The notes under the pieces were generated by a model, which ran no database searches, was not told the origin of the DNA, and saw only the letters and a program-made list of their open reading frames with translations. Shown piece after piece: positions 17,829 to 18,881 of a DNA stretch of 64,000 bases; position 1 is the stretch's first letter; the number at the start of each line of letters is the position of its first letter. Location: positions 1,364,001 to 1,428,000 of the forward strand of contig NC_009486.1 of assembly GCF_000016785.1 (NCBI RefSeq). Reading direction: 5' to 3'. Made by a program: the position numbers and the translations under genes. This DNA is from Thermotoga petrophila RKU-1. Lineage in GTDB: Bacteria; Thermotogota; Thermotogae; Thermotogales; Thermotogaceae.

Positions 17829-18881
17829 GTGGAACTTGTCGTTGATGCTCATGAACTCAAAGAGTGGGTCTATCTGCTCGATAAACTGGTTGGAACAACC
17901 GAACCCACTGCGAGATTTCTCAGTTTCTTTTACAGAGATGGGCTCTGGGTGAGTGCGAGCGACAACTGTGCTAAAGTGGAGATATTCCTGGGGGAGATAC
18001 CCCGATTCGAAGGCAGCAGGATCGTTTCTCTAGATCTTGTGAAGTATTTTTTGAGTGATGTTAGAGTCAGTGATGTTCGAATCACCGTCCTTCAGGAACG
18101 GCTCGTTCTGAGAGCGGGGAATGAAGTTCTGGACGTTCGGTGCAAAACGGGAGAAATTCCTCCAGGAGATGGCGAAGAGGAATTTCTCTGCACACTCACG
18201 AAGCGTGAATTCGAAGGAGCGTTGAACTTTGCCAGTTCTAATCTCGACGAAGGGGAATTCCTGATTCTTCTTTTTGAGGAAAAAGATGTTTTGATGTTTG
18301 GATCATCAGCAGGCATTATGACCCTCGCACAGATCTCTACAATTCCGAAGAATCCCTTTTCTACAAAAATTCCGTACGTCACGGTGAGGCACATTTTCAA
18401 AGCTTTTCAAAGACTGGATGTTCAGACTCTGGACTTCTATGAGAAATCTGGAAAACTCGTGGTGAAGTATCCTCATTTTGTTATGGAAGTTTGTGGTGAC
18501 GAAGTGAAAGAAGGAGAGATCAAAAAACTGAGGGCTTTGCTGGAAGAAAAGACCGTAGAACGGATAGAAGCGAAGAAGCAGGTCCTTGCAAAGCTCGTGA
18601 GAAAAGCCTCAGTGCTCTCAAGAGGAGATTACGCCACGATCTCAAGAAGAGGGGAAAGTCTGAAAGTTCAGGTAAAACGAAAGAATCTCAGTTACACTGC
18701 GGAACTTTTTGTGGAATCCGGAAGAGATTTTGTTGTGGTGTTTCCTTCGAAGAAATTGAGAAGTGCCCTCGCACGGATGGACACCGAAAGGATATTTCTT
18801 GAGATCACAGAAAGGTTCCTGAAGATCTCCAATTTTTCAGGAACCAGAGTTATCTACCTTGAACTTGAGGAGTTCTTCTAA
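17829..18881 (+). CDS. Divergent DNA sliding clamp (beta-clamp)-like protein
   Basis: A 350-residue protein with no obvious enzyme motif. Read against the DnaN family by eye, it shows three consecutive clamp-like domains of about 115 residues. Domain I has LWVSASDNCAKVEI where clamps have an LTATDLEVEI-like strand, then VSLDLVKYFL and a strand/turn pattern ending in GEIPPGD. Domain II has TLTKREFEGALNFAS and IPYVTVRHIFKAF. Domain III has AKLVRKASVLS, then VVVFPSKKLRSALARMD and IFLEITERFLKISN. The length matches DnaN (about 366). GTG at 17829 follows GAGGTGAAACTCT. It sits last in the frr-alaS operon; its 3' end overlaps hslO on the other strand by 45 bp. Clamp ancestry is inferred from pattern matching only; a canonical dnaN is expected elsewhere. 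Confidence 0.68.
   Translation: MELVVDAHELKEWVYLLDKLVGTTEPTARFLSFFYRDGLWVSASDNCAKVEIFLGEIPRFEGSRIVSLDLVKYFLSDVRVSDVRITVLQERLVLRAGNEVLDVRCKTGEIPPGDGEEEFLCTLTKREFEGALNFASSNLDEGEFLILLFEEKDVLMFGSSAGIMTLAQISTIPKNPFSTKIPYVTVRHIFKAFQRLDVQTLDFYEKSGKLVVKYPHFVMEVCGDEVKEGEIKKLRALLEEKTVERIEAKKQVLAKLVRKASVLSRGDYATISRRGESLKVQVKRKNLSYTAELFVESGRDFVVVFPSKKLRSALARMDTERIFLEITERFLKISNFSGTRVIYLELEEFF

Follow-up and report, generated by a model that had tools for sequence, protein, structure and literature searches.

We report that a 64,000-nucleotide stretch of the Thermotoga petrophila RKU-1 genome (contig NC_009486.1, positions 1,364,001 to 1,428,000; the whole stretch is referred to as the window) carries a gene, here named clamp2, for a paralogue of the bacterial sliding clamp DnaN that is specific to Thermotogota. 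The host genome is one contig of 1,823,511 bases, and clamp2 is an open reading frame (ORF) of 350 codons that starts with GTG and encodes 350 residues; its T. maritima locus tag is presumably TM1395. An earlier inspection of the letters and ORFs of this DNA (the sequence-only reading) had suggested a possible divergent second sliding clamp at this position, following alaS and built from three successive domains of about 115 residues. The gene and its domains are as follows (window coordinates):

17829..18881, plus strand: clamp2, divergent beta-clamp paralogue (ORF call, AlphaFold2, Foldseek and profiles)
17829..18164, plus strand: domain I, residues 1-112, with the GTxEPxxR loop (residues 22-29), D45xC47, the K72 helix and the E99/L101 edge strand
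18165..18542, plus strand: domain II, residues 113-238, with the LDEG loop (residues 139-142) and the PYxTxRHIxK pore-type helix (residues 182-191)
18543..18878, plus strand: domain III, residues 239-350, with the Y289 edge strand, the LRSALxR pore-type helix (residues 310-316) and a C-terminus without MPxR

The AlphaFold2 model of the window protein, predicted as a monomer like all structures here and based on a modest alignment (A4; the window protein and seven relatives), shows three clamp domains with a mean predicted local distance difference test score (pLDDT) of 90 and a predicted template modelling score (pTM) of 0.87. When this model was compared with the PDB using Foldseek, the top 50 matches were all bacterial beta clamps, including T. 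maritima DnaN (1vpk), with E-values of 1.5e-21 to 2.4e-20, template modelling scores of 0.77-0.85 and 11-14% identity. The same fold was independently predicted for L055, a Kosmotogaceae-type orthologue encoded beside polC (pLDDT 87.6). A profile of 38 clamp2 members gave 14 matches among the PDB sequences, all of them beta clamps (best 1vpk, E-value 1.7e-7). Moreover, the comparison of the clamp2 family with DnaN profiles that had been proposed earlier resulted in a full-length hhalign match over 346 columns (probability 98.9%, E-value 3e-17, 16% identity; the DnaN set comprised 22 sequences, 21 from Thermotogota and one from another phylum). Three segments of ~112 residues, close to the length first suggested, are also related to each other in profile-profile comparisons of the thirds of the family alignment (E-values for I vs III 1.8e-7, II vs III 2.6e-6 and I vs II 5.5e-5; reversed control, 0.03-0.3). 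Since BLASTP between clamp2 and DnaN of the same genome shows almost no match, the homology is seen only at the level of profiles and fold. Fold, profile homology and internal repeats together identify clamp2 as a DnaN homologue, and the predicted clamp fold is settled to the limit of computation. This confirms the divergent second clamp-fold protein of the sequence-only reading: the model has three clamp domains, the family falls among the beta clamps and not in an unrelated family, and the motifs quoted at the time are present in clamp2.

The canonical clamp lies elsewhere, also as first stated; DnaN (368 residues, C-terminus MPIRLA) maps to G000:C1:670877-671968 on the minus strand. Clamp2 shares with T. 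maritima (1vpk) and E. coli (2pol) DnaN the three-domain fold, a length of ~350-370 residues, full-length profile homology and the domain I Asp. It differs in its low identity (~14-16%), in being basic instead of very acidic, in the motifs PYxSxRHxxK and LRSALxR, in its missing pocket signatures (see below), and in forming a separate phylum-specific clade that coexists with DnaN. Scans of the single window protein against Pfam and NCBIfam gave chance matches only and no DnaN model recognised it, hence it is probably annotated as hypothetical; even at E ≤ 0.1 only eight of 38 clamp2 members reach PF00712. Single-sequence phmmer of the window protein against the PDB likewise gave chance matches only (e.g. 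Cas12i), and a PADLOC scan for clamp2 gave nothing. Clamp2 is a clamp-superfamily member outside canonical DnaN, and neither Pfam nor NCBIfam has its family.

In a maximum-likelihood tree, DnaN constitutes one side of a branch of 2.4 substitutions (100% support), and the clamp2 sequences group by bacterial family (families are denoted f and genera g). Those of f2, f3, f5, f8, f9 and f11 each form a single branch, those of f1 and f4 were not recovered as single branches, partly owing to long branches, and the order among the clamp2 families is not resolved by the tree. An ancient duplication followed by vertical inheritance would give such a pattern. Phage beta clamps (PHROG 947 and Caudovirales entries of BFVD) share the fold with clamp2, with Foldseek E-values down to 4.8e-21, and there is a weak full-length profile match to PHROG 947 (phrog_947, DNA polymerase processivity factor; E-value 2.5e-5). 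Unlike these, clamp2 is chromosomal and apparently vertically inherited, and a recent phage origin is unsupported because tblastn of phage records gave zero detectable clamp2 relatives. PCNA and 9-1-1 resemble clamp2 in the idea of a specialised second clamp and in the superfamily fold, PCNAs appearing lower in the BFVD list; clamp2 differs in having three domains per chain, as bacterial clamps do, and the PDB top 50 included zero PCNA. Clamp2 is a new phylum-specific form of the beta clamp, second bacterial clamps as such being already known; in a search of open-access papers, neither a description of a second Thermotoga clamp nor anything relevant on TM1395 came up.

Clamp2 is present in 98 of 103 Thermotogota genomes, essentially as a single copy; at E ≤ 1e-8 it is absent from all 287 genomes that represent other phyla. 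The sole match outside Thermotogota (G236) was rejected as clamp2; it is a canonical DnaN with C-terminal MPLRL. DnaN coexists with clamp2 in nearly all genomes (58/61 over the Pfam cut-off), and comparisons of close species gave ratios of nonsynonymous to synonymous substitution rates (dN/dS) of 0.04-0.08, i.e. purifying selection. Clamp2 is a genuine, strongly conserved gene. Four observations on individual assemblies can be added. At G022:C1:11552-13091 (L016) clamp2 is followed by a 197-residue ORF that repeats its C-terminal part (profile positions 161-345) and that, judged by its sequence, is a partial tandem duplication of clamp2. At G089:C9:270752-271671 clamp2 is in two pieces with internal stops, where poor sequence is likely since PolC of this genome is broken too. 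G047 has clamp2 and no detected canonical DnaN (best E-value 0.1-0.26), which is probably an assembly gap given that the genome is 93% complete. Finally, an extra gene over the cut-off for PF02768 (the canonical DnaN C-terminal domain) occurs besides DnaN and clamp2 at G060:C1:1818708, G039:C23:20517 and G058:C55:31053; these are possibly mobile-element clamps.

Specific residue changes separate clamp2 from DnaN. The DnaN sequences FP[DN]Y, DGxR and MPxR contribute to the pocket for QLxLF-type peptides. In alignment-independent counts, FP[DN]Y was found in 0/47 clamp2 vs 21/22 DnaN sequences, DGxR in 1/47 vs 20/22 and C-terminal MPxR in 1/47 vs 22/22, and clamp2 has lost the sequence signatures of the DnaN peptide pocket. 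The pattern PY.S.RH..K shows the reverse distribution (47/47 vs 0/22). The charge has shifted as well: the isoelectric point is 5.9-9.8 for clamp2 vs 4.5-5.2 for DnaN, the net charge +4.6 vs -17.9, and the mean charge per chain of the six helices at DnaN pore positions +9.5 vs +2.7. The near-invariant residues of clamp2 comprise D45 and C47, E141/G142, G22 and E25 (loop following helix 1), and P182/Y183/R187/H188/K191 (domain II) and L310/R311/R316 (domain III), the last two groups lying on or beside the second helix of the respective domain. They further comprise E99/L101 and Y289, located on the pair of edge strands that by alignment match the DnaN dimer interface; among all these D45 is common to clamp2 and DnaN (D50 in the latter).

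These changes bear on whether clamp2 is a second processivity clamp of the ordinary kind that is in part redundant with DnaN, as in Bacillus anthracis. There, as in relatives of B. anthracis, dnaN is likewise accompanied by another clamp gene in the same genome; its product, DnaN-2, is ~40% similar to DnaN-1 and can take part in replication (PMC3290774). This precedent and the shared fold speak for redundancy, whereas the identity between clamp2 and DnaN is about 14-16% as against about 40% homology between DnaN-2 and DnaN-1 (PMC3290774), 46-47 of 47 members are without the pocket signatures, and PolC still has the DnaN-binding motif (see below). In contrast to DnaN-2, clamp2 is far more divergent, phylum-wide and pocketless, and is no recent clear duplicate of the host DnaN, as the 2.4-substitution branch indicates. 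We therefore consider redundancy very unlikely.

The features surrounding clamp2 in the window are:

17816..17822, plus strand: GAGGTGA, Shine-Dalgarno-like, overlapping the alaS stop (read directly from the sequence)
13174..17822, plus strand: frr, uppS, cdsA and alaS, co-directional and 5' of clamp2 (names from sequence)
18837..19724, minus strand: hslO-like gene, convergent, overlapping the clamp2 3' end by 45 bases (ORF list and neighbour comparison)

Clamp2 closes the co-directional series frr-uppS-cdsA-alaS, and its position after alaS is as first described, with the start six bases past the alaS stop. The latter is at 17822 and overlaps GAGGTGA, which ends six nucleotides ahead of the GTG; hence clamp2 is here translated immediately after alaS. 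The order frr-uppS-cdsA-alaS-clamp2 is repeated at the Thermotogaceae loci L090 and L129, and the five genes are probably on one transcript in this family. Further downstream in the window, a 585-residue open frame at 20062-21819 (plus strand) is antisense to a clpC-like gene; nothing marks it as a gene.

Comparison of the loci revealed that the clamp2 neighbours vary by family: alaS in Thermotoga, D-Ala-D-Ala ligase in f2, ychF nearby in f5 and, in one f3 genus, tsaD, which clamp2 follows. In 30 of the 38 f9 and f11 genomes, representing 12 of 13 genera, clamp2 is located immediately 3' of polC and in the same orientation, with the polC and clamp2 matches ending 4-14 nucleotides apart. The remaining cases are all seven g20 genomes, where the genes are apart, and G081, where clamp2 is a contig fragment. 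Three further assemblies (L054-L056) show polC adjoining clamp2 likewise, and this is the sole arrangement that recurs across deep branches. At the two loci tested with Pfam, the ~1400-residue neighbour is PolC, having polymerase, PHP, exonuclease and HHH domains; at the one f9 locus tested, the gene before polC is ruvC. Having polC (and ruvC) as neighbours suggests a place at the replication fork or in fork repair. Contrary to the sequence-only reading, which saw no other clue to function, there are three: the polC adjacency, the basic residues of the putative pore helices, which are the most conserved, and the absent pocket signatures. Separately, many f9 genomes carry a second PolC-like polymerase (e.g. 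G060:C1:1829532-1831871; frame of about 904-1025 residues) that is 41-46% identical to PolC over its C-terminal part.

The neighbours could also be taken to indicate that the clamp fold was recycled for a non-DNA role, e.g. one related to RNA or tRNA, given the positions after alaS in Thermotogaceae and after tsaD in one f3 genus, with frr nearby in some. Yet these neighbours change by family and only the polC link recurs (two families, 12 genera), and the basic pore residues suit nucleic acid, most simply duplex DNA; this is to us the least probable account of clamp2.

With respect to the polymerases, the C-terminal Qxx(L/M)F of PolC is kept in 23 of 24 sequences (QFTLF, QISLF, QMSLF etc.), the exception ending with QIMLI. 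A switch of PolC from DnaN to clamp2 is unsupported by this conservation. Because PolC keeps the motif it presumably still uses DnaN, which makes clamp2 an addition and not a replacement. Thermotogae are unusual in combining PolC with a DnaE3 that is strongly reduced, more so than any other of its group; it lacks the OB and CTD domains and a thumb element and has a high isoelectric point (PMC3919608). The host DnaE (G000:C1 ~444000-446500; L169, L172) has an open frame of only ~848 residues, which fits the reduced DnaE3 of that report, and a weak clamp motif, IRSLF. One could accordingly envisage a clamp dedicated to the lagging-strand DnaE3, supplying the DNA grip of its lost thumb, OB and CTD parts, as the reduced polymerase and clamp2 occur in the same phylum. 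On the other side, linkage of dnaE to clamp2 did not turn up (no search was aimed at such linkage), and the host DnaE has its LF-type motif, read by eye and weak, where others bind DnaN. We judge a dedicated DnaE3 clamp to be very improbable.

The reading that we favour is that clamp2 is an accessory clamp that encircles DNA, belongs to the replication/recombination machinery of Thermotogota and functions without the standard clamp-binding motif, and we give it an even chance. Ring formation, loading and partner of clamp2 are what we infer. Two clamp2 molecules, joined head to tail through the conserved edge strands (E99/L101 of domain I and Y289 of domain III), would encircle duplex DNA as a closed ring; that both strands are conserved suggests that the ring still closes. 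R187/H188/K191, R311/R316 and K72 may grip DNA more tightly than DnaN does, and the conserved basic pore-type helices suggest that nucleic acid, most simply duplex DNA, passes through the ring or lies on that face. The missing pocket suggests partners that come without the usual motif and perhaps altered loading too. Clamp2 would not replace DnaN, since the QLxLF-type pocket is gone while PolC keeps the motif; rather, it would serve as an accessory ring bound to DNA, with another surface recruiting a different partner, at the fork or in fork repair. The first partner candidates are PolC or the RuvC pathway, and a second candidate role would be to help DnaE3, given PolC together with the strongly reduced DnaE3 in Thermotogae. 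We tentatively extend this to a two-clamp system, a version that we hold to be possible but less likely than not, in which DnaN would serve the motif-driven partners and the ancient, phylum-specific, tighter-gripping and pocketless clamp2 would act as a fixed PolC/RuvC accessory via a new interface.

Several points weigh against the accessory ring. Clamp2 was undetected in five assemblies (two of the Thermotogaceae genus g3, two of g18, and G030, which has sister species that carry clamp2), and may thus be dispensable. A more divergent profile still detected none in these five genomes, the weak match in G054 being the canonical DnaN there; in two further genera of Thermotogaceae the copies are short (frames of 325-331 residues) and very divergent. 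Moreover, genus g20 of f9 is without the polC link, the Thermotogaceae clamp2 sits behind alaS, away from replication genes, and the mapping of clamp2 residues onto DnaN depends on a 16%-identity alignment. The clamp loader acts on DnaN through the same pocket that clamp2 has lost, so a route for loading clamp2 is missing; a second delta-type clamp-loader gene (PF06144) was sought in the host genome and only one delta was found.

That clamp2 lacks the pocket required by the loader also argues for a clamp-fold protein that is no longer a sliding ring, i.e. a nucleic-acid-binding scaffold or regulator, monomeric or hetero-oligomeric with DnaN, e.g. a PolC subunit or DnaN modulator. The neutral-to-basic isoelectric point, unlike that of DnaN, the very fast divergence (most members are only 19-43% identical to the window protein) and the polC adjacency agree with this explanation, but all three domains and both edge strands are kept, with the most conserved strand residues (E99, L101 and Y289) on the dimer-interface strands by alignment, and the basic residues are concentrated on the pore helices. 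Such a scaffold is in our view unlikely, albeit a serious contender.

The accessory-ring reading of clamp2 lends itself to direct tests, since proteins from Thermotoga usually withstand heat and are easily produced. Standard teaching holds that bacteria have one sliding clamp and that all partners compete for its single pocket. If the reading is true, the second sliding clamp of Thermotogota would be a specialised bacterial clamp, phylum-wide and more than a redundant copy, and specialised clamps would exist in bacteria too, as exemplified in eukaryotes by PCNA and 9-1-1.
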